64,000 nt of DNA from Lacrimispora amygdalina (GTDB taxonomy: Bacteria > Bacillota > Clostridia > Lachnospirales > Lachnospiraceae). The notes beneath the pieces are model-generated. The model worked only from the letters and a program-made list of their open reading frames with translations. It was not told the origin of the DNA and did no database searches. The position numbers and the translations under genes were made by a program. Positions 3,381-13,456 of the stretch are shown piece by piece (positions within the stretch are counted from its first letter, which is position 1; each line of letters starts with the position of its first letter). The stretch spans positions 62,001 through 126,000 of the forward strand of contig NZ_QOHO01000030.1 in NCBI RefSeq assembly GCF_003432035.1, read 5' to 3'.

Positions 3381-4136
3381 ATGATAACCTACAATAATCT
3401 TTACGACAACGGGAATATGCTTAAAATTGGCGAACGCGGATGTGTGAAAGTGTTTGAACATCAAAAAGATTTAAGTGTGAACTCCGCTTCTGCCATAACT
3501 TCCTACTACGCATCAAAAATGAATATACGCAAAAGACAGGTTCTGATTGAACTCAATGGCAATTCCTTCACTGTCCAGGCTGGTGCCATGCAGTGGACTT
3601 CCGGTTCCGTTTCCATGACTTCCGGAATTAAGGGAGTGGGCGATTTTCTCGGTAAGGCACTTGCTTCCAAAGTGACAAAAGAATCCTCTGCAAAACCGGA
3701 ATTTAAGGGCAGCGGTCTTCTGATGCTGGAGCCAACCTACAAGCATATTCTGCTGGAAGAGATTTCCGACTGGGGAAGCATGGTGCTGGAAGACGGATTA
3801 TTCCTCGCCTGTGATTCCAACATCAAGCAGAATGTGGTTGCCAGAACCACACTGACCTCCGCAGTTGCCGGAAAAGAAGGTTTATTCAATTTATGCCTGA
3901 CCGGACAGGGAATCGCAGTGCTGGAAAGCCCCGTTCCAAGAGAAGAACTGATTGAGTTTGATTTAAAGGACGACGAAGTTAAAATTGACGGAAATATGGC
4001 GATTGCCTGGTCCAACTCCTTAAAATTTACGGTAGAGCGTTCCTCCAAATCCCTGATCGGTTCCGCAGTCTCAGGAGAAGGTCTGGTAAATGTATACCGG
4101 GGTACCGGCAAAATTCTTATGGCACCAGTGGAGTAA
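3381..4136 (+). CDS. AIM24 (DUF124) family protein
   Basis: 251-residue protein resembling the AIM24 family of beta-rich repeat proteins: GNSFTVQAGAMQWTSGSV near residue 55, FKGSGLLMLEPTYKHILL near 110, and the repeated glycine-rich strands ending GEGLVNVYRGTGKILMAPVE. The biochemical role of bacterial AIM24 proteins is not established. It has no signal peptide and no membrane segment. AAAGGAG lies just before the ATG. It stands alone, closed by its own terminator and separated from the two-component system that follows. Confidence 0.85.
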   Translation: MITYNNLYDNGNMLKIGERGCVKVFEHQKDLSVNSASAITSYYASKMNIRKRQVLIELNGNSFTVQAGAMQWTSGSVSMTSGIKGVGDFLGKALASKVTKESSAKPEFKGSGLLMLEPTYKHILLEEISDWGSMVLEDGLFLACDSNIKQNVVARTTLTSAVAGKEGLFNLCLTGQGIAVLESPVPREELIEFDLKDDEVKIDGNMAIAWSNSLKFTVERSSKSLIGSAVSGEGLVNVYRGTGKILMAPVE

Positions 4137-4263: not shown

Positions 4264-4324
4264 TTCTTAATAATTCTTAATTCAGCCTATATTGCCTTGT
4301 TATTGCGTCTATAAGTGCTATAAT
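4264..4324 (+). promoter_or_regulatory. Promoter of the two-component/dlt-like operon with tandem direct repeats
   Basis: A TATAAT -10 box at 4319-4324 sits 16 bases after TTGTTA (4297-4302). Just upstream, TTCTTAAT occurs at 4264-4271 and again at 4274-4281. A 10-bp period is what tandem OmpR-family response-regulator dimers typically bind. This suggests autoregulation by the regulator encoded 36 bases downstream. The boxes are seen directly; the binding protein is inferred. Confidence 0.6.
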
Positions 4325-4359
4325 TCACATGATCAAAACAATCAAGGAGGCATCTGTCC

Positions 4360-5073
4360 ATGAGTTCCATGCAACAGATTTTAGTGGTGGATGATGACGC
4401 AGATATCAGGGAAGTAATCCGTATACAGCTGGAGAACAAAGGGTATCTCGTTTTGGAGGCCGCTAACGGAAGCGATGCGGTGAATACAGTCAGAAAAAAT
4501 CCCGATATCGACCTGATTATACTGGATATCATGATGCCAGGCATGTCCGGGATTGAGGCATGTGCACAAATCAGAACCTTTCATTCCGCTCCGGTTTTAT
4601 TTTTAACTGCGAAGTCAAAAGAAACCGACAAAAAAGATGCCTATGAAAACGGCGGAGATGATTATCTGGTGAAACCATTTTCCCAGGCAGAGCTTTTTAT
4701 GAAAATACAGTCCCTGTTAAGAAGATATGTTGTCTATAAGGGAAAGGCAGAATCCGGGGTAAATCTCTCGGAAGTTCATGTTCAGGATATCGTTATTGAT
4801 ACTGTAAACCACTGGGTATACCGGGAAAATCAGAAAATAGAGCTGACCGATACGGAATATCTGGTTTTAATGTATCTGGTTAAAAATAAGGGGAACGCAA
4901 AAGATGCCCAGGCTATTTACGAGGGAGTATGGAATGAAAAATTTCTTCCTTCCTCTACCAATACAATCATGGTTCATATTTTAAAGCTGAGAAAGAAACT
5001 GGAACTGGATTTTAACAATCCTTTAATCATCCGCACTGTCTGGGGAAAGGGATATCAGATTGATGAAGGGTAA
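4360..5073 (+). CDS. OmpR/PhoB-family response regulator
   Basis: 237-residue two-component regulator. The receiver domain (about 1-120) has the acidic pair D11/D12, phospho-acceptor D56 (ILDIMMPGMSG), T83 and K105 (LVKPFS). The C-terminal winged helix (about 140-235) has the typical RNTIMVHILKLRKKL-type recognition region and ends VWGKGYQIDEG. AAGGAGG lies nine bases before the chosen ATG. It overlaps the kinase gene and leads a seven-gene run into the dlt-like genes, so it likely controls cell-envelope charge modification in response to envelope stress, as VanR/CprR-like regulators do. The signal is unknown. Confidence 0.95.
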   Translation: MSSMQQILVVDDDADIREVIRIQLENKGYLVLEAANGSDAVNTVRKNPDIDLIILDIMMPGMSGIEACAQIRTFHSAPVLFLTAKSKETDKKDAYENGGDDYLVKPFSQAELFMKIQSLLRRYVVYKGKAESGVNLSEVHVQDIVIDTVNHWVYRENQKIELTDTEYLVLMYLVKNKGNAKDAQAIYEGVWNEKFLPSSTNTIMVHILKLRKKLELDFNNPLIIRTVWGKGYQIDEG

Positions 5074-6394
5074 AATATTTTCATCACTGCGTTATAAGCA
5101 GGTATTTGTACTCCTGTTCGGAGCATTCATAAGCTTCGCCATGTATCTGATTGTAGGAACTGTGGGAGAATACCTGGTTTCAAAGAAACACATGGATGAA
5201 GACTCGGTGCGAAACCGGTTAAACAGCTACCAGAATTCCTTTGAAAATTATGTACGGAAAAACAAGATTTCCGTGAAGGATGTACGGGCTATATCAAGAT
5301 GGGTGAAGAGCCATAAATATGTGTATCTCACCATATATAACGGGGACGAAATTCTTTATGAATCGGGATTCTGGAATGATTCCTACTCTTCCTATGAAAC
5401 GGCTGCAACCATTGTGGACGGCTGTACCCAGCAGGAACGGGATATTACCTTTTCAGACGGCACATTCTCCGTATCCATCATTGATTCTTCCCAGATCAAA
5501 TGGCTTGACTTAGTACTGTACTGTTCCTGGATTATATTCTTTATTATATTTTTCATTATTATAATCCTTTATAACCGAAGGATCATTGACCGCATCGTCC
5601 TTCTGTCAAAAGAAGTGTCACTCATTGAGAAAGGGGACTTAGAGCAGCCCATTTATCATAAAGGAAACGATGAAATCTCACTTTTAGCTAAAAATGCGGA
5701 CAATATGAGGCATTCCATAATCACCAGATATAAAAGTGAAAAAGATGCATGGGAAGCAAACAGCGAGCTAATCACCTCCATGTCCCACGATATCCGCACA
5801 CCATTAACTTCCTTAATCGGATATCTGGAAATTCTGGATTCCAAAGACTACCGTTCAGAGGAACAGCTGGAGAAATACATTAAAAGCTGCAGGGAAAAGT
5901 CCATTCAGCTGAAGGATTTGTCTGATAAGCTGTTTCAGTACTTTCTTGTATTCGGTAAGGATACCATCTTAATGGAGATGGAAATTTTTGATGCAAGAAT
6001 TCTGCTTCAGCAGCTTTTAAGTGAACACGTTTTTAATTTAAACAGCCTTGGTTTTGAAGTACAGACGGAATTTATGGATGAACCATGCACCATTAAAATT
6101 GATATCCAGTATTTGAAACGTCTCTTTGACAACCTGTTTTCCAATGTAAGAAAATACGCCGGTCACGGCTCTCCCGTTGTCGTCAGGGGGGCCAGGGAAG
6201 GGGACTTTTTAATCATCAGCATTACCAATGAAATCCGTACCGATCTGGTCTTTCAGGAAAGCACCAATATCGGACTGAAAACATGCAGAAAAATTGCCGA
6301 GCAGATGGACGGGAATTTTGAAATTCTCACTACGGAAACTCTCTTTACCGCCCGCGCCACATTTCCTATAACATCGGCAGGAAAGGAATCTTAA
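5063..6394 (+). CDS. Membrane sensor histidine kinase
   Basis: 443-residue kinase. TM1 lies at about residues 12-36, followed by an extracellular loop of roughly 115 residues and TM2 near 150-175. A HAMP-like linker comes next, then the HisKA H-box TSMSHDIRTPLTSL with the phospho-His at about residue 242. A HATPase domain with N-box LFDNLFSNVRKYAG follows. The usual DxGxG G1 motif is not visible (ISITNEI instead), while a G2-like GLKTCRKIAEQM is present. That degenerate ATP lid occurs in some peptide-sensing kinases but makes autokinase strength uncertain. The gene overlaps its regulator and is separated from the DltA-like gene by two bases, so they are co-transcribed. An in-frame TTG three bases upstream is the alternative start. 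Confidence 0.92.
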   Translation: MKGKIFSSLRYKQVFVLLFGAFISFAMYLIVGTVGEYLVSKKHMDEDSVRNRLNSYQNSFENYVRKNKISVKDVRAISRWVKSHKYVYLTIYNGDEILYESGFWNDSYSSYETAATIVDGCTQQERDITFSDGTFSVSIIDSSQIKWLDLVLYCSWIIFFIIFFIIIILYNRRIIDRIVLLSKEVSLIEKGDLEQPIYHKGNDEISLLAKNADNMRHSIITRYKSEKDAWEANSELITSMSHDIRTPLTSLIGYLEILDSKDYRSEEQLEKYIKSCREKSIQLKDLSDKLFQYFLVFGKDTILMEMEIFDARILLQQLLSEHVFNLNSLGFEVQTEFMDEPCTIKIDIQYLKRLFDNLFSNVRKYAGHGSPVVVRGAREGDFLIISITNEIRTDLVFQESTNIGLKTCRKIAEQMDGNFEILTTETLFTARATFPITSAGKES

Positions 6395-6396
6395 TC

Positions 6397-7902
6397 ATGA
6401 ATAATATATTAGAATATCTGGAATGTTCTGCAAACGAATTTCCGGACAAAACGGCCATTATTGATCCGGATGACAGCTGCACCTATAAGGAGCTGTATGA
6501 CCGTGCCCGACAGATCGGAAGCTTTTTAACAGAGCATACAAAAGCAGGAAGACCGGTTGTGGTATTCATGGATAAGTGTGTGGAAGCACTGACCTCATTT
6601 ATGGGGATTGTTTATGCAGGCTGTTTTTATACAGTTATAAATCCGGACCAGCCCGCTGCCAGAATCAGCCAGATCCTTGATGTCTTAAAGACAGACTGTA
6701 TTATCTCACTTGGAGATTCTGACGATAAGCTTAAGGAACTTTCTTTTAAAGGAACCATCTTTGACTACCGGAAGCTTCTTTCTTCTCCCATAAACACGGA
6801 CCGTCTGAAAGCTGTCCGGGAAAAGTCCCTGGATATCCAGCCATTGTATTGTAACTTTACTTCCGGTTCTACCGGAGTTCCCAAAGGGGTGCTGGTGAGC
6901 CACCGGTCCGTTATCGACTTTATGGAATATTTCCCGTCCATGTTCGAGATTACGAAGGATGATGTCCTGGGCAATCAGGCTCCTCTGGATTTTGATGTAT
7001 CGGTAAAAGACATCTATTCTGCCTTTAAAACCGGTGCATCCATTGTTCTCATACCGAAAAAATATTTTTCCATTCCCACCATGCTTTTGGACTGTCTTTG
7101 CAGCTATCAGGTGACCACACTGATCTGGGCTGTTTCGGCGCTGTGCATGGTCACTCAGCTGAGGGGATTTACTTATAAAGTACCAGACCGCGTCAATAAG
7201 GTTTTATTCAGCGGGGAAGCCATGCCGGCAAGCCATCTGGCGCTCTGGCAGAAGAACCTTCCCCATGCGAAGTTTGTAAATCTTTACGGTCCCACAGAGA
7301 TTACCTGCAACTGTACCTATTACCCGGTTTTAAGAGTATTCGAACCGGAAGAAAAAATTCCCATTGGAAAACCATTTCCCAATGAAAACGTATTTCTTCT
7401 TGGAACCGGTGACAAGCTCATCTCAGCCGAAGGGGAAACCGGAGAAATCTGCGTATCAGGTACCGCTCTCGCCCTTGGATATTATAACAATCCGGAGCAG
7501 ACAAAAAAGGCGTTTGTTCAAAATCCGTTAAATAATCTCTATCCTGAGACCATTTACCGGACCGGAGACCTTGCTTTTTATAACAGCCGGAGAGAATTGT
7601 GTTTCGCTGGGCGCAGGGATTTTCAGATTAAACACATGGGACACCGGATTGAACTGGAAGAGATCGAGCTGATCTTAAACAGTTATCCGGAAATTGACCG
7701 GGCCTGCTGTGCGTTTGACAGTGTAAAAAACCGCCTTGCTGCATTTTACAGCGGGGATTTAGATAAAAAGGAACTGCTTAAGCGTATGCGGGAGACGCTG
7801 CCGTCTTACATGATTCCCAGCCTTTGCATTCCTGTACTTCACATCCCCGTTACTGCAAACGGTAAGATGGACAGAAAAAAATTATTGGAGATGTGTCTAT
7901 GA
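6397..7902 (+). CDS. dltA: DltA-like amino-acid:carrier-protein ligase (adenylation enzyme)
   Basis: 501-residue stand-alone adenylation enzyme. In characterised dlt operons DltA activates D-alanine and loads it onto DltC. Adenylation motifs are present: the A3 loop FTSGSTGVPKG, NLYGPTE (A5), YRTGD (A7), GRRDFQIKHMGHRIELEEIE (A8) and NGKMDRKK (A10, catalytic Lys). The residue before the GE of A4 is Ser272 (VLFSGEAMP). From memory, Bacillus DltA has Cys here (Cys269 in B. cereus), reported to matter for D-Ala selection. The substrate may therefore differ from D-Ala. The ribosome binding site AAAGGA lies inside the kinase gene's end, and the next gene overlaps its stop by four bases. Family call is firm, substrate is not. 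Confidence 0.88.
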   Translation: MNNILEYLECSANEFPDKTAIIDPDDSCTYKELYDRARQIGSFLTEHTKAGRPVVVFMDKCVEALTSFMGIVYAGCFYTVINPDQPAARISQILDVLKTDCIISLGDSDDKLKELSFKGTIFDYRKLLSSPINTDRLKAVREKSLDIQPLYCNFTSGSTGVPKGVLVSHRSVIDFMEYFPSMFEITKDDVLGNQAPLDFDVSVKDIYSAFKTGASIVLIPKKYFSIPTMLLDCLCSYQVTTLIWAVSALCMVTQLRGFTYKVPDRVNKVLFSGEAMPASHLALWQKNLPHAKFVNLYGPTEITCNCTYYPVLRVFEPEEKIPIGKPFPNENVFLLGTGDKLISAEGETGEICVSGTALALGYYNNPEQTKKAFVQNPLNNLYPETIYRTGDLAFYNSRRELCFAGRRDFQIKHMGHRIELEEIELILNSYPEIDRACCAFDSVKNRLAAFYSGDLDKKELLKRMRETLPSYMIPSLCIPVLHIPVTANGKMDRKKLLEMCL

Positions 7903-9095
7903 AACAAGAATTGAACGATATAAAAATGAAAACTGCATTTGAAACATATCAAACACCATTCTATCTTTTTGATACAGACATTCTGACCAGCCGGATCGCG
8001 GACATACGGTCAGCGCTTCCGCCGCGAACACAATTGTGCTTTGCCATGAAAGCCAATCCCTTTTTAGTAAAGGACATGGAGAAGCATGTGGATTATTTTG
8101 AGGTATGCTCACCGGGAGAATTTCACATCTGTGAAAGAGCGGGAATTGATAAAAAACGGATTGTGATGTCAGGCGTACATAAGAAACAGGAAGATATGGA
8201 GTACGCCATTACCAGATATTCAGACAGCATTATTTTTACCGTGGAATCTTTTGAGCACTGGAAGATCCTTACCTCCTGTGCTATTAGAGAAAAAAGAAAT
8301 ATCCGGGTCCTTTTGCGCCTTACCAGCGGAAACCAGTTTGGAATGGATGAACCGTCCATACGCAGGATCATCTCCGGGGGGCCTTATGAATATGTAGAAA
8401 TCTCAGGCATCCAGTACTTTTCCGGCACCCAGAAAAAATCAGGAGCGAAACTTGAGGGCGAACTTAAGATGCTGGACCAGCTTTGCGCTGATTTACAAAA
8501 GCAGTATCAGTTTACGGTTCAAAAGCTGGAATACGGTCCGGGGCTTCCGGTGTGTTATTTTGAAGGAGAAACGGATGAGGAAGAGGCTATGCTTCTTGCC
8601 CTGTCAAGTGCCATTGAAAGTCTGACCTTCAAAGGACAGGTGACACTTGAAATGGGGCGATTTATCGCTGCATCCTGCGGATTTTATGCAACAAGCGTGG
8701 TAGACTTAAAAACCAACAATGGCCAGTCTTACTGTATCGTTGACGGAGGCATACACCAGCTGAACTATTATGGTCAGATGCTGGCTATGAAAAAGCCATT
8801 TATTACCCATTACGGAAGGCAGGACGGGGAAGCCGCAGAGTGGACCGTATGTGGTTCTCTCTGCACTTCCAGTGATGTTCTGGTAAGGCAGTATCCGTTT
8901 CATGCTTTGGAACAGGGCGACAGGCTTGTATTTCAGAAGACAGGTGCTTACTCTGTCACAGAAGGGATGGCGATGTTTTTAAGCCGTGATCTTCCTTTGG
9001 TACTTCTATATTCAGAAAATGAGCAGTACCGGGTTGCAAGACCGGCTCTTGCAACAGACCAGTTTCATTTTTTCACTCAGAAAGGAGATAAATAA
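7899..9095 (+). CDS. Fold-III PLP enzyme, LysA/Orn-DAP decarboxylase-like, embedded in dlt-like operon
   Basis: 398-residue alanine-racemase-fold PLP enzyme. The PLP lysine is K51 in CFAMKANP. The substrate-side loop reads GIQYFSGTQ where diaminopimelate decarboxylase has HxGSQ. EYGPGLP, LEMGRF and the cross-dimer Cys motif CGSLCTSSDVL follow. The changed loop resembles decarboxylases of secondary metabolism, such as BtrK-type enzymes that act on carrier-protein-bound amino acids, more than housekeeping LysA. It overlaps the DltA-like gene (ATGA) and is one base from the carrier-protein gene, so translation is coupled. It could decarboxylate or racemise the amino acid, free or loaded on the carrier. 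Neither reaction can be chosen from sequence alone. GGAG precedes the ATG at 7899; an upstream GTG at 7893 is less likely. Confidence 0.85.
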   Translation: MKQELNDIKMKTAFETYQTPFYLFDTDILTSRIADIRSALPPRTQLCFAMKANPFLVKDMEKHVDYFEVCSPGEFHICERAGIDKKRIVMSGVHKKQEDMEYAITRYSDSIIFTVESFEHWKILTSCAIREKRNIRVLLRLTSGNQFGMDEPSIRRIISGGPYEYVEISGIQYFSGTQKKSGAKLEGELKMLDQLCADLQKQYQFTVQKLEYGPGLPVCYFEGETDEEEAMLLALSSAIESLTFKGQVTLEMGRFIAASCGFYATSVVDLKTNNGQSYCIVDGGIHQLNYYGQMLAMKKPFITHYGRQDGEAAEWTVCGSLCTSSDVLVRQYPFHALEQGDRLVFQKTGAYSVTEGMAMFLSRDLPLVLLYSENEQYRVARPALATDQFHFFTQKGDK

Positions 9096-9323
9096 ATGAA
9101 TGAATTATTAGCAATTTTAAACGAAATTAACCCGGGGATTGATTATGAAAAAGAGACAGGGCTGATCGACAACGCTCTTTTAGATTCCTTTTCCATTCTC
9201 TCACTGATTCCTGAGCTGGAGGATGCCTTTGGTATTACTATTACACCGGCAGATATGATTCCTGTTAACTTTAATTCAGCAGATGCGCTATGGAGCATGA
9301 TCAACCGGCTGAAAGAGGAATAA
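9096..9323 (+). CDS. dltC: DltC-like acyl/aminoacyl carrier protein
   Basis: 75-residue acidic carrier protein. The phosphopantetheine serine is predicted at S31 in LLDSFSILSLI (DSL/DSF signature), with short helices on both sides. Size and position next to the ligase and the MBOAT protein match DltC, which receives an aminoacyl group as a thioester and hands it to the membrane transferase. AAAGGAG lies eight bases before the start. The MBOAT gene starts four bases after its stop. Confidence 0.92.
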   Translation: MNELLAILNEINPGIDYEKETGLIDNALLDSFSILSLIPELEDAFGITITPADMIPVNFNSADALWSMINRLKEE

Positions 9324-9326
9324 GCT

Positions 9327-10910
9327 ATGACCTATACGTCTATCCTTTACCTCATCATCTTTCTTCCCGGTGTCATACTACTTTATCAGCTGGCACCGGT
9401 GCGCCACCGGTATAAGGTTTTACTGGGAGCCAGCTGGCTTTTTTTTCTTTCCCTCAGCGGAACGCTTATTGTGTATCTGCTGATCTCCACGCTTTCCGTT
9501 CATCATATCGGGCTGTGGCTTTCTTCCTGTAAGAAAGAACTTGATTTAACGGGCGCATCCCCGGAAGAGAAAAAGGCTTTAAAAGCAGCCTGCGCCGGAA
9601 AAAGGCGGAGAATCCTCTGGTTTGGTATGGGAATCCAGCTTGGCATGCTGGTAGTACTGAAATATTCCGGATTTTTCAGCGATAACATCAATCATATATT
9701 AAAGGCAGTATCTTATCCAAACCTGCTGCCTGCCATGAGATTTGCCCTTCCCATCGGGATTTCATTTTATACCTTACAGGCCGTCTCTTATCTGGCAGAC
9801 GTATATTTTGAAAAAATTCCCGCTGACGACCACCTGGGCAGACTGGCTTTATATCTGACCTTCTTTCCCATATTGATGGAAGGACCCATATGCCGCTACT
9901 CTCAGACCGCATGCGCTCTCACAGCGGGAAAACCCCTGGAATATAAAAACGTGACCTACGGGTTTCAGAGAATTTTATGGGGACTGTTTAAGAAGCTTGT
10001 CATTGCAGACCGGCTGAATCTGCTTGTTGAAACAGTCTTTGGATCTTATAACCAGTACGGAGGCATTATTGTAATTGTCAGTGCCATCCTTTATACCTTT
10101 CAGCTTTACGCGGATTTCTCCGGCTGTATTGACATGACAATCGGAACCGGTGAAATCTTTGGAATCTCCATACCGGAAAACTTCCGGCAGCCATTTTTTT
10201 CAAAAAACCCTTCCGAATTCTGGAGGCGGTGGCATATTACTCTTGGTACCTGGCTGAAGGACTATATCTTTTATCCCATTTCCCTGACTGCTCCGGTAAA
10301 GAAGTTCGGGAAAAATTCCAGAGCAAAATTAGGAAAGCACCTGGGACAGGTGGCTGCCACTTCTCCCGCACTATTTGGAGTATGGATCTGCAATGGCTTC
10401 TGGCATGGCACCGGCTGGCATTATCTTTTTTTCGGCATGTATTACTTTGTTCTTATTTTACTGGAAAATATCACGGAACCTTACGTTGTAAAAGCAGCCG
10501 AAACACTGAAGATCAACCGCAGCAGCCTGATATACCGTATCTTTCAGTCCGTAAAGCTCCTTATCATTGTCTTTACAGGCGAATTATTTTTCCGGGCTGA
10601 AACACTGACAGCTGGATTTTCCATGTTCCGGTCCATATTTACAGGATTTCAGTTCTCCTCCCTGACTGACGGTTCTCTTTTACAGCTGGGGCTGGCTTTA
10701 CCTGATTATGCAGCCGTATTTTTAGGCTTTCTGGCAGTACTGGCAGTTGGTGTGATCCACGAACGCGGTATTTCCATAAGAGATCAATTATCCGGTTATA
10801 AACTTCCGGTTCGATGGAGTCTTTATTATGGAGCGATTTTACTTGTAATCGTCCTCGGTGCATACGGCGACGGATATTTACCGGCAAAACTGATCTATGC
10901 CGGATTTTAA
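9327..10910 (+). CDS. dltB: DltB-like MBOAT-family membrane transferase
   Basis: 527-residue polytopic membrane protein of the MBOAT family, expected to move the aminoacyl group from the carrier protein across the membrane for transfer to lipoteichoic acid. Family signatures are present: FWRRWHITLGTWLKDYIFYPI with H303, and CNGFWHGTGWHYLFFG with the invariant MBOAT His H360. The protein is longer than the roughly 400-residue Bacillus DltB. The extra length comes mostly from an enlarged cytoplasmic loop near residues 65-95 and additional C-terminal helices. The ribosome binding site GAGGAA lies inside the end of dltC. Confidence 0.92.
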   Translation: MTYTSILYLIIFLPGVILLYQLAPVRHRYKVLLGASWLFFLSLSGTLIVYLLISTLSVHHIGLWLSSCKKELDLTGASPEEKKALKAACAGKRRRILWFGMGIQLGMLVVLKYSGFFSDNINHILKAVSYPNLLPAMRFALPIGISFYTLQAVSYLADVYFEKIPADDHLGRLALYLTFFPILMEGPICRYSQTACALTAGKPLEYKNVTYGFQRILWGLFKKLVIADRLNLLVETVFGSYNQYGGIIVIVSAILYTFQLYADFSGCIDMTIGTGEIFGISIPENFRQPFFSKNPSEFWRRWHITLGTWLKDYIFYPISLTAPVKKFGKNSRAKLGKHLGQVAATSPALFGVWICNGFWHGTGWHYLFFGMYYFVLILLENITEPYVVKAAETLKINRSSLIYRIFQSVKLLIIVFTGELFFRAETLTAGFSMFRSIFTGFQFSSLTDGSLLQLGLALPDYAAVFLGFLAVLAVGVIHERGISIRDQLSGYKLPVRWSLYYGAILLVIVLGAYGDGYLPAKLIYAGF

Positions 10911-10921
10911 GAGGTGACGGA

Positions 10922-11893
10922 ATGCATGCAGGAAACAAAATAAGAACATTTTCCTTTTTCACGGGACTTATCATTCTTTTGTATATCATGTCCTTTCTTT
11001 TCCTGCCGGTAAACACCGGGGCAGAGGGACTTTACAAAAAAGCCGGGGGGATCTATAAGGAACCCAAAAATACCATCGGCTACTTATCCATCGGAGACAG
11101 TGAATGCAGCACCAGTATCTCTCCCATGGAGATCTGGAATACCTTCGGGTACACAGGCTTTAACTGCGGGGTACCCGGCCAGAGGCTTCAGGATACCTAT
11201 TATCTTCTGGAAAAGGTATTAAATAAGCAGTCTCCAAAAGTAGTGCTGCTTGAAACCAATGCCTGTTTCCGGGATTTTAAATACATCAATGCCCTGGAAA
11301 CTGCAATTGATGAAAAAACAAAGAAATTATTTCCTATTTACCAGTACCACAACAACTGGAGATATTTTCATTTCTATATGCTGAAAAATATCAGTGCCGG
11401 AAAATCAGAAAAACCGTCACCTGTTTATAAAGGGTATCAGTATAATATCATCAACAAGCCTTATACCGGAGGACCTTATAACATGGAAACAGATGAGGTT
11501 TTCGATATACAGGAACAGCCCTTTCTGTATCTGACGAAAATCAATGAACTGTGTAAGGAAAAGGGAATTACTCTGATTTTATACAGCTCTCCCTCCCCCA
11601 AATGCTGGACCTACGCAAAACACAATGCTGTAAAGCAGTTTGCTGATAAAAATAACCTTGATTATATCGATTTAAACCTGTCTTTAGACCAGTTATCCAT
11701 TGACTGGACCACTGATTCCAGAGACGGAGGAGATCATATCAACTATTACGGAGCAAAAAAAGTATCTGCATATATGGGCAGTTACTTATCCGGTTTAAAT
11801 CTCCTGACAGATCACAGAGAGGATCCCCGGTTTGCTTCCTGGAATACTGAACTTAAAAGCTATCAGACACAGACAAATCAAAATTCAAAGTAA
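10922..11893 (+). CDS. SGNH-type membrane-anchored protein in the DltD position
   Basis: 323-residue protein with one N-terminal membrane anchor (about residues 8-28) and an external domain. GDSE at 58-61 with candidate nucleophile S60, and DGGDHINYYG with H272 near the C-terminus, fit a Ser/His hydrolase-like (SGNH) fold as in DltD and AlgX/PatB-like partners of MBOAT proteins. Overall similarity to classical DltD is low, so I call it DltD-like by position. GAGGTGA precedes the ATG at 10922; upstream in-frame codons overlap dltB and are unlikely. No small DltX-like ORF was found in the operon. Confidence 0.8.
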   Translation: MHAGNKIRTFSFFTGLIILLYIMSFLFLPVNTGAEGLYKKAGGIYKEPKNTIGYLSIGDSECSTSISPMEIWNTFGYTGFNCGVPGQRLQDTYYLLEKVLNKQSPKVVLLETNACFRDFKYINALETAIDEKTKKLFPIYQYHNNWRYFHFYMLKNISAGKSEKPSPVYKGYQYNIINKPYTGGPYNMETDEVFDIQEQPFLYLTKINELCKEKGITLILYSSPSPKCWTYAKHNAVKQFADKNNLDYIDLNLSLDQLSIDWTTDSRDGGDHINYYGAKKVSAYMGSYLSGLNLLTDHREDPRFASWNTELKSYQTQTNQNSK

Positions 11894-11900
11894 GTAAAAA

Positions 11901-11945
11901 TCCGGCCATGCAGGCAAATCCGCTGCAGGGCCGGTTAATTTTATT
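11901..11945. terminator. Bidirectional terminator between the dlt-like operon and alaA
   Basis: Stem CCGGCCATGCAG / CTGCAGGGCCGG (11902-11934, one mismatch), flanked by T-rich tracts on both strands (TTAATTTTATT on plus, ATTTTTA on minus). It closes the seven-gene operon and ends the convergent aminotransferase gene. Confidence 0.85.
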
Positions 11946-13158
11946 CCTGTCTGTAGTAAGATAGAAAATCTTCCAGCCGGCTGCAGGCGGATTTCAGCTG
12001 CTCCATTTCCGGTAAATAAACCACCCGGAAATGATCGGGTTTTTCCCAGTGAAAGCCTCCGCCGTGGGTAAGAAGAATCTTTTTATCTCTTAGAAAATCC
12101 AGAACAAACTTTTCATCGTCATAAATTCCAAATCGCTTCGTATCGATTTTAGGAAATACATAAAAAGCAGCTTTGGGCTTTGTTGCAGATATTCCCGGGA
12201 TCTGGTTCAATGCCTGGTATATGTATTCTCTCTGTTCATAGATCCTGCCGCCCGGAACCAGCAGTTTCTTTGTCTCCTCTTCCATCTCAAGGGCAGTTTC
12301 AATCACAGACTGGGCGGGAACATTGGAACACAGTCTCATGGAAGACAGCAGATTGATTCCCTCCACATATCCCTTTGCAAAGGATTTATCCCCGCAAAGG
12401 CTCATCCAGCCGCAGCGGTATCCTGCGATTAAATGGGATTTGGACAGCCCGTTAAACGTGATGGTCAGAAGGTCCGGTGCAAGAGACGCAATGGAGGTAT
12501 GGGTCAGTCCGTCAAGCACCAGCCTGTCATAAATCTCATCTGCAAAAATAATGAGTCCGTTTTCCCGGCAGAGCTTAACGATTTCTTCTAACAGCTCTTT
12601 GGAATAGAGGGTTCCTGTGGGGTTATTGGGATTAATAACAACAATACCCTTAGTCCTGTCTGTAATCTTGCTCTTAATATCATTGATGTCCGGATACCAG
12701 TCTGCAGCTTCATCACAGATATAGTGAACTGCCGTACCGCCCGCCAGAGTTACAGACGCAGTCCAAAGCGGGTAATCCGGAGAGGGAACCAGGATTTCAT
12801 CACCGGAATCCAAAAGTCCCTGCATGGACAGAGTGATTAATTCACTGACTCCGTTTCCTGTATACACATCCTCTGTTTTCACCCCATGGATTCCTTTTTT
12901 CCGGCAATACTTCACAATTGCTTCCCTGGCGGATAATAAGCCTCTGGAATCGGAGTAGCCTTCTGTGTTGGCTAAATTATCATTCATTTTCTTTAAAAGC
13001 GCTTCCGGTGCGCGAAAGCCAAATGGAGCCGGATTGCCGATATTCAGTTTTAAAATTTCTAATCCCTGGGCGATCATACGGTTTGCTTCGTCCATAACCG
13101 GTCCCCTGATGTCGTAGCATACATAATCCAGTTTTTTTGATTTTTCAAATTTTCTCAT
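11941..13158 (-). CDS. alaA: Alanine aminotransferase, AlaA-type (glutamate-pyruvate)
   Basis: 405-residue class I PLP aminotransferase. It matches E. coli AlaA almost block by block: YDIRGPVMDEA, LKLNIGNPAPFGF, GNGVSELI, PSPDYPLWTA, INPNNPTGTLYSKELL, FADEIYDRL, and the PLP lysine in TFNGLSKSHLIAGYRCGWM. AlaA makes alanine from pyruvate and glutamate. An upstream T-box with an apparent GCA (Ala) specifier independently supports the assignment. AGAGGGA precedes the start. It is monocistronic, with terminators at both ends. Confidence 0.95.
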   Translation of the reverse strand: MRKFEKSKKLDYVCYDIRGPVMDEANRMIAQGLEILKLNIGNPAPFGFRAPEALLKKMNDNLANTEGYSDSRGLLSAREAIVKYCRKKGIHGVKTEDVYTGNGVSELITLSMQGLLDSGDEILVPSPDYPLWTASVTLAGGTAVHYICDEAADWYPDINDIKSKITDRTKGIVVINPNNPTGTLYSKELLEEIVKLCRENGLIIFADEIYDRLVLDGLTHTSIASLAPDLLTITFNGLSKSHLIAGYRCGWMSLCGDKSFAKGYVEGINLLSSMRLCSNVPAQSVIETALEMEEETKKLLVPGGRIYEQREYIYQALNQIPGISATKPKAAFYVFPKIDTKRFGIYDDEKFVLDFLRDKKILLTHGGGFHWEKPDHFRVVYLPEMEQLKSACSRLEDFLSYYRQE

Positions 13159-13187
13159 AATACATTCCCTCTTTCTTAATTTTGCAT

Positions 13188-13221
13188 AAAAAAAGGCCCC
13201 AAGCGTTAAAACGCTTAGGGC
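13188..13221 (-). terminator. T-box conditional terminator
   Basis: On the minus strand GCCCTAAGCGTT and AACGCTTGGGGC form a stem with a two-base loop, followed by seven T residues (13194-13188), 30 bases before alaA. It is the expression platform of the T-box leader. Confidence 0.88.
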
Positions 13222-13456
13222 GAATATACAATCCGTGTTACCACCTAAATTCAGAGAATTCTCTGCACTCCATACGGTACTGACATACCGCGTCCCTGTA
13301 ACGTGGGAATCCGTTGAAGCCTACTTGGAGAATCTCTCCGTTGGGTTCAAAGCTCCGAGACTGCTTCCATATACTTCAATAAAGGTTCACACCAGCCACC
13401 TTCTCTCTGAAATTCTCCGTATACGTACTATTCCTCTTCATTGCCTTTTCACTATT
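13188..13456 (-). ncRNA. T-box leader riboswitch, predicted alanine specific, controlling alaA
   Basis: The minus-strand leader carries the conserved T-box core AGGTGGTAACACGG (13246-13233), immediately followed by the terminator. Stem I elements AGAGAGAAGG and GGTGTGAACC are visible upstream. The specifier region reads GGAAGCAGTC, placing codon GCA (Ala) at 13364-13362. The T-box TGGT can pair with an ACCA tRNA end, that is discriminator A, as in bacterial tRNA-Ala. It should allow alaA transcription when tRNA-Ala is uncharged. The specifier frame is read by eye from the usual GAA-NNN context. Confidence 0.9.

Follow-up and report, generated by a model that had tools for sequence, protein, structure and literature searches.

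This study was concerned with a stretch of 64,000 nucleotides from Lacrimispora amygdalina (contig NZ_QOHO01000030.1, positions 62,001 to 126,000), called the window here, and with a cluster of seven + strand genes that lie tightly packed at its positions 4360-11893. In order, these genes encode a response regulator, a histidine kinase, an adenylation enzyme (A, referred to below as the ligase), a fold-III pyridoxal phosphate (PLP) enzyme, a carrier protein (CP), an MBOAT acyltransferase and an SGNH protein. The response regulator is of the OmpR/PhoB type (4360-5073; PF00072 and PF00486 above cut-off), and its gene overlaps that of a membrane sensor histidine kinase (5060/5063-6394; HisKA above cut-off, HATPase_c and HAMP slightly under theirs). 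After a gap of 2 bases comes a standalone amino-acid adenylation enzyme with the code DVKILSLCNK (6397-7902; PF00501 219.6 bits; TIGR01733 323.7 bits, cut-off 317.4), whose stop codon overlaps the start codon of the PLP gene as ATGA (7899-7902). The PLP gene (ATG at 7899, end at 9095) is followed with a gap of 0 by the carrier gene (9096-9323; PP-binding 20.7 bits, cut-off 20.8), which has its phosphopantetheine site at Ser31. Three bases further on is the MBOAT gene (9327-10910; PF03062 63.6 bits), the product of which ends in a putative acyl-shuttle tail, LIYAGF, with Tyr524, and after another 11 bases the gene for a membrane-anchored SGNH protein (ATG at 10922, end at 11893), assigned from its predicted fold and with the residues Ser60, Asp268 and His272. 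A first-pass annotation of this DNA had described the gene order, the tight spacing and the position of the PLP gene between ligase and carrier, coupled to both, and the measured gaps and overlaps confirm the cluster as one tight operon. The single terminator it listed is probable: a GC-rich hairpin at 11902-11934 (-22.9 kcal/mol, z -3.56 by folding) probably ends both the operon and a convergent aminotransferase gene, although a simple terminator scan did not pick it up.

The five genes from ligase to SGNH form a unit that recurs in many genomes. A search of 61 genomes for the PLP enzyme gave strong homologues (E 6e-77 or better) in the genome of the window, in 22 of the 24 further members of the genus and in 4 of 12 genomes from the rest of the family; the 24 genomes from elsewhere in the order had none (best match 6.5e-19). 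The five genes stood in the same order in all 21 of the 22 genus loci that were read, one of which had split frames and another a ligase cut by the contig end. The response regulator and the histidine kinase were also present in 19 of these 21 loci, and contig ends truncate the remaining two. Scanning named genome contigs gave at least 543 confirmed relatives, from which 80 loci were kept; the matches listed came from Lachnospiraceae, other Clostridia, Erysipelothrix, Merdibacter, Thomasclavelia, Collinsella, Enorma, Slackia and others. Many carriers of the unit are gut isolates, judging by the titles of their records.

For counting, 108 stretches were reduced to 101 units by dropping four duplicates, one split-frame copy and two LysA controls. 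Families were assigned by profile score on the strand of the PLP gene and within 7 kb of it, with profiles built for each family from 10-15 of the very loci counted, and SGNH proteins were accepted from 25 bits, so that some SGNH assignments are weak. The five-gene order that the first-pass annotation had proposed to look for elsewhere was thus found widely: 80 of the 101 units, from Lachnospiraceae, Erysipelotrichia and Coriobacteriia, hold all five core genes on one strand. The order A-PLP-CP-MBOAT-SGNH occurs in 70 units and MBOAT-SGNH-A-PLP-CP in eight. Within those 70 units, gaps of 60 bases or less, measured from the stop codon to the next profile match, separate A from PLP in 64, PLP from CP in 58, CP from MBOAT in 66 and MBOAT from SGNH in 55. 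Twenty-one units are short of all five genes: nine are cut by a contig end (L051, L077, L088, L094, L097, L116, L117, L124, L129), and in twelve one or more genes are missing in the stretch examined (L052, L068, L084, L092, L095, L103, L112, L119, L126, L132, L133, L137). The ligase and PLP genes occur together in nearly all units and their adjacency is kept across orders and phyla. For this reason the PLP gene, first described as inserted in a dlt-like operon, is no chance insert. The unit is a real, conserved and widely scattered system.

The system is sparse across the phylum. In an even sample of 149 genomes, the PLP family (E <= 1e-60) occurred in 3, counting that of the window, and DltD in 5, with one weak match; the two sets did not overlap, though the numbers are too small to conclude exclusion. 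A search of the open-licence PMC literature, seen for the most part as titles and beginnings of abstracts, gave no description of the five-gene system. A second MBOAT/SGNH subclass (MBOAT profile about 500, SGNH 30-52) accompanies the same trio in L064, L066, L067, L069, L070, L072 and L083. Some genes upstream of the unit in L064, L066, L067 and L100 resemble, by eye, YbbR and diadenylate cyclase genes. In Lacrimispora xylanisolvens ASCUSBR21 (L050 / L063) every one of the ligase, PLP, MBOAT and aminotransferase genes is split; the splitting of the neighbour too suggests sequencing indels rather than decay.

The ligase had been called DltA-like, a label that proved to be loose. It scores 265.2 bits on the DltA model, for which the cut-off is 559.85, and is outscored there by nonribosomal peptide synthetase (NRPS) domains of the same genome (up to 330); none of 25 genomes had a protein above the cut-off. 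In a tree of 32 rows, 20 operon ligases formed one clade (support 100/99), separate from the rows of DltA (4), NRPS domains (5) and VinN-like enzymes (2). Of 93 ligase copies, 92 retain the pocket pattern D.K..S.CNK; taken singly, Ser272 occurs in 93 of 93, Lys204 in 92 (Arg in the last), Val201 in 91, and Cys304 and Asn305 in 92. Four clostridial DltA controls, taken from loci with DltB and DltD, instead had the code DL[ML].LC.VAK, and all four had Cys in FCGE, the residue with a role in D-Ala selection. The first-pass observation that Ser272 stands at the place of this Cys therefore extends to every copy examined. A DltA with one changed residue was ruled out as a description, since the clade is separate and several pocket residues differ, and a VinN-type ligase was ruled out by the tree and the aligned residues. 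These sequence comparisons support the view that the pocket is not a D-Ala pocket.

The pocket also gives some indication of the substrate. An NRPS domain of the same genome (on contig C91) has the code DAKDVGVVDK, which we take to be a glutamate code, and shares Asp235 and Lys239 (GrsA numbering) with the operon ligase. From this, Lys204, at GrsA position 239, appears to partner a distal carboxylate, and the substrate is probably an acidic amino acid. Large NRPS genes lie in this genome on C91, the contig of the domain with the glutamate-type code, and on C144. One outlier, the ligase of L053, has the code IARGCSQASK, with Arg at the position of Lys204 and Ile for Asp200, so that Asp235 is lost; this enzyme may load a different acid. 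The L053 unit (7763-13328) is a divergent copy with the order A-CP-PLP-MBOAT-SGNH.

The PLP enzyme was annotated at first as a fold-III decarboxylase-like enzyme, with BtrK-type decarboxylases as precedent, and this identification agrees with its relatives. The best match among solved structures is BtrK (E 1.6e-32), followed by diaminopimelate decarboxylases (1e-22 and weaker). Lys51, Leu321, Cys322 and Asp326 are present in 101 of 101 copies, and position 323 is T or S in all of them, giving the motif LC[T/S]..D throughout. LCT is also found in BtrK, in two VinO-like genes, which adjoin annotated methylaspartate mutases, and in three further plasmid genes (5 of 5 plasmid-borne relatives compared), whereas 10 of 11 LysA-type controls have CE at the motif. 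A strict RPxxY occurs in none of 20 operon rows but in 7 of the 11 controls (10 when the pattern is loosened). On the LysA model the enzyme scores 167.9 bits (cut-off 297.9), a cut-off that the genus's own LysA-like genes also miss, and its top NCBIfam match is TIGR03099 at 183 bits (cut-off 478). In the PLP trees, the operon enzymes form one clade (100/100), and the VinO-like group is its sister (97/92; 99/94 with BtrK added). The genome has a separate LysA-like gene, at G000:C24. These comparisons support an enzyme of the BtrK/VinO kind rather than a housekeeping LysA; plain LysA was ruled out by the motif, the score and the separate gene, and alanine racemase is not favoured, the decarboxylase Cys being invariant. 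The annotation's two alternatives, a plain racemase or diaminopimelate decarboxylase and an enzyme making a D-amino acid in place, lose ground on the same evidence.

These results bear on two other accounts of what the ligase and the PLP enzyme do together. In the first, the ligase would load an acidic residue by its alpha carboxyl, the residue itself would be transferred, and the PLP enzyme would racemize the acyl group or supply a D-amino acid. The Asp235 and Lys239 match to the glutamate-type NRPS domain agrees with this, as does the fact that fold III includes alanine racemase, and the enzyme scores 37.1 bits on Ala_racemase_N. However, the Cys of the decarboxylases is kept, motif included, in all 101 copies, the window protein scores 183 and 168 bits on the TIGR03099 and LysA models, and the NCBIfam scan listed no racemase model for it (one distant copy matched alr at 19.9 bits). 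We consider this account rather improbable. In the second, decarboxylation would come before loading: the PLP enzyme would act on free Asp (giving beta-alanine), free Glu (giving 4-aminobutyrate, GABA) or, say, a free diamino acid, and its product would then be loaded by the ligase. Diaminopimelate, lysine and ornithine decarboxylases act on free acids, all three are among the solved relatives of the same fold, and gene order alone leaves the order of the steps unset. Against this stand LC[T/S] in place of the CE of LysA-type controls, the lack of strict RPxxY, and a Lys at GrsA position 239 that would have no evident partner in beta-alanine, GABA or lysine. In addition, BtrK by its PDB name and VinO, in passages of PMC11284099, act on the carrier. 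Decarboxylation of the free acid is thus unlikely.

The carrier, the MBOAT and the SGNH protein make up a Dlt-like transfer half, which is well supported. Ser31 of the carrier is present in 96 of 96 copies, and the protein scores 25.9 bits on the DltC model (cut-off 68). The MBOAT scores 144.7 bits on the DltB model (cut-off 375), and DltB is its best PDB match both by profile and by fold. Its His303 is kept in 89 of 89 copies. The Tyr of the tail is present in all 87 copies that could be scored at that position (two gap rows left out), LIYAGF, FIYAQF and PMYAQF being common endings. At 527 residues it is longer than the DltB frames of canonical dlt loci (402-467 residues), and its predicted model (pLDDT 87) has further helices after the core, with tail parts 514-516 and 520-527 below pLDDT 50, as expected of a mobile arm. 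According to passages of PMC12148441, the tail tyrosine that accepts the acyl group and carries it to the SGNH protein is on DltX in Dlt and on the MBOAT tail in PatA, and other MBOAT/SGNH pathways have no carrier like DltC. A carrier together with a shuttle tail fused to the MBOAT is outside what these passages cover. A pattern search found no DltX-like reading frame in the operon apart from the MBOAT tail; two other pattern matches were rejected as stretches inside the SGNH and MBOAT frames. A similar pattern found DltX-like frames in 3 of 4 canonical dlt control loci and also caught one unrelated short frame in L171.

The SGNH assignment of the first-pass annotation holds at the level of fold and not of family. 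The protein has no Pfam match, but its AlphaFold2 model (pLDDT 84, N-terminal helix 3-26) resembles SGNH/GDSL acylhydrolases in Foldseek (E 6e-7; TM about 0.4 by query and 0.6-0.7 by target). Ser60 is kept in 86 of 86 copies and His272 in 83 of 83 (three gap rows left out). DltD (PF04914) was found in none of 16 genomes, the window's own included, and PHROGs gave no match to the carrier, the MBOAT or the SGNH protein. Thus the MBOAT His, the shuttle Tyr, the SGNH Ser and His and the carrier Ser, the catalytic set of carrier-dependent MBOAT-SGNH envelope acylation, are all in place. The operon fails every curated Dlt test made (DltA, DltB, DltC, DltD) and its transfer half has Dlt parts. One might see here nothing more than D-alanylation, the operon holding a DltA that has drifted and, by accident, a decarboxylase with no part in the pathway. 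The MBOAT is indeed closest to DltB among solved structures, and two-component control of dlt is known in some streptococci. Yet ligase, carrier and MBOAT score under the cut-offs of the Dlt models, the SGNH protein does not belong to the DltD family, the pocket differs invariantly from that of DltA, and the PLP gene stays beside the ligase across orders and phyla. This makes ordinary D-alanylation highly improbable.

From what was observed of the genes and their order, their conservation, the catalytic residues, the folds and the clades, we infer a substrate, a linkage and an acceptor as follows. First, the ligase would adenylate Asp or Glu and attach it to the carrier phosphopantetheine, the side-chain carboxyl being the most likely point of linkage, which leaves the alpha amino and alpha carboxyl groups free, with Lys204 binding the distal carboxylate. 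Secondly, going by its family, the PLP enzyme would remove the alpha carboxyl on the carrier, giving beta-alanyl- or 4-aminobutyryl-carrier. Third, as its conserved residues suggest, the MBOAT would move the omega-aminoacyl group across the membrane onto its own Tyr524, its C-terminal tail replacing the separate microprotein DltX. Lastly, Ser60 of the SGNH protein would take the acyl group and esterify an extracellular polymer, adding positive charge. Decarboxylation on the carrier is proposed by analogy with the vicenistatin pathway, where VinN charges VinL with 3-methylaspartate and VinO needs this thioester in order to decarboxylate (passages of PMC11284099). Side-chain loading would in turn be required, because an alpha decarboxylase acting on the carrier needs a free alpha carboxyl; the linkage is thus an analogy with BtrK and VinO, and the ligase pocket is no proof of it. 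This is the simplest scheme that uses every part. The first-pass suggestion of a decoration other than D-Ala is kept in part: the pocket, on sequence grounds, does not look made for D-Ala and a decarboxylated product is the best guess, while a D-amino acid made in place is not favoured.

Several observations weigh against this scheme or limit it. First, at least 21 of the 101 units come from the genus of the window, so not all are independent, and three units (L095, L137, L088) have the PLP gene with no ligase found upstream by profile. Secondly, the GrsA numbering of the code comes from our own alignment and is provisional. Third, the residues of VinN that presumably bind the carboxylate, Lys330/Arg331 and Ser299, are missing from the operon ligase, which has T303, C304 and G273 there; in VinN the basic pair follows YGQTE and the Ser replaces a conserved Gly. 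Two VinN-like plasmid ligases have the basic residues but Gly-Ala (TNTGAA), so that the Ser is inconstant in that group. Since the VinN residues are absent and the ligase lies outside the VinN-like clade, homology does not support side-chain loading, and the glutamate-type code fits ordinary alpha loading equally, which would leave an alpha decarboxylase no task. Fourth, BtrK, the exosortase-type enzyme and one other LCT enzyme fall on the LysA side of the 99/94 branch; the LCT enzymes are thus not one clade (2 changes) and LCT is an argument from motif. One LysA-type control, L150, also has LCT, and the operon enzyme lacks about 14 residues that BtrK has before QFGMD. Lastly, an alternative use of the trio must be weighed, in which it would make an omega-aminoacyl carrier mainly for sugar modification, the MBOAT/SGNH use being later and adding a different group. 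Four of the 101 units (L084, L112, L119, L126) have CP-A-PLP without MBOAT, as if the same acyl-carrier could serve sugar modification, and by eye these loci hold glycosyltransferase-like genes, L084 also flagellin-like genes. However, the invariant pocket residues are identical in both settings, which points to one acyl group, and we find this alternative quite improbable.

With these points taken together, we give a probability of roughly 0.5 to a two-component-linked, Dlt-like envelope acylation in which the acyl group is made on the carrier from Asp or Glu.

Regulation of the operon was considered from its upstream region. A direct repeat, TTCTTAAT-AA-TTCTTAAT, with a period of 10, lies on the + strand at 4264-4281 and is a probable response-regulator box, as judged from sequence. 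It is kept as TCTTAA[TC]AATTCTTAA in 17 of 19 aligned upstream regions, and in the remaining two the alignment leaves it uncovered. A sigma-70-type promoter, TTGTTA-16-TATAAT, follows at 4297-4324 (+ strand; motif scan and genus conservation). Its elements, as TTGT[T/C]ATT and TATAATT, are conserved in 19 of 19 genus rows, and the number of sigma-70-type sites in the region is no higher than in shuffled sequence. Of 84 loci, a set in which thinning had left four members of the genus, 34 had response-regulator-type genes within 6 kb, compared with 9 of 84 for the next commonest neighbour family, a comparison made with other neighbour families only and not with random loci. In 56 of 60 cases these genes are on the operon strand. 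The response regulator and histidine kinase probably control expression of the operon. The conserved repeat and promoter before the regulator gene, together with regulator genes near many loci, suggest that the envelope decoration can be induced, a property that dlt has in some species.

Other genes near the operon and elsewhere in the genome were also noted. An AIM24-family protein (PF01987) is encoded just upstream, at 3381-4136, and is there in only part of the genus. The convergent aminotransferase gene (11941-13158), whose product scores 349 bits on the PRK08363 alanine aminotransferase model (cut-off 534), was no more than about 4.3 kb from the operon in 21 of 21 genus loci read. A second MBOAT gene is found outside the window (G000:C11:18904-19485). 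With respect to the acceptor, PF04464 (TagF-type) had no match in this genome and was present in 4 of 9 genus relatives searched. A protein of 665 residues resembles lipoteichoic acid synthase distantly (31.9 bits on the LtaS model, cut-off 970) and is only a candidate.

The operon shares parts with several known systems. Like DltABCDX, it has a standalone adenylation enzyme, a carrier, a DltB-like MBOAT, an SGNH protein and a shuttle tyrosine in an FxYxxF-like hexapeptide. It differs in that its ligase forms a clade of its own with Ser for Cys and Lys239, a PLP decarboxylase is added, the shuttle tail is on a longer MBOAT with no DltX seen, and the SGNH protein has no PF04914 match. An adenylation enzyme, a standalone carrier and an LCT-type PLP decarboxylase are shared with VinN/VinL/VinO of vicenistatin and with FlvN-type starter cassettes, and the VinO-like group is sister to the operon PLP enzymes (99/94). 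However, the operon ligase is of another lineage, without the carboxylate-binding residues of VinN, and its product would go to an envelope acyltransferase rather than to a polyketide synthase. In butirosin biosynthesis, BtrK (PDB name L-glutamyl-[BtrI acyl-carrier protein] decarboxylase) is the best PDB match but is not sister in the tree, and the operon enzyme is without its short loop; BtrI is loaded by an ATP-grasp ligase. The exosortase-A-associated TIGR03098/TIGR03099 pair also has adjacent ligase and PLP genes, in Sinorhizobium meliloti pSymB, but that ligase groups on a long branch with VinN-like enzymes and not with the operon ligase. PatA/PatB, AlgI and other MBOAT-SGNH pairs have no carrier and evidently use acyl-CoA, going by passages of PMC12148441, whereas the operon encodes both carrier and ligase.

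The decorated surface may thus carry an unusual amine such as beta-alanine or GABA. Tentatively, and with slightly less than an even chance of being right, the operon may represent a type of envelope chemistry, previously undescribed and widely scattered among gut Bacillota and Coriobacteriia, in which polymer esters of an omega-amino acid (beta-alanine or GABA), made on a carrier and transferred by a single MBOAT with a built-in tail, replace D-alanylation as a tunable positive charge. If the model is true, it would give bacteria without Dlt a means of tuning surface charge, would extend envelope chemistry by a new aminoacyl group, and would mean that a polyketide-type starter module has been recruited to the cell surface.

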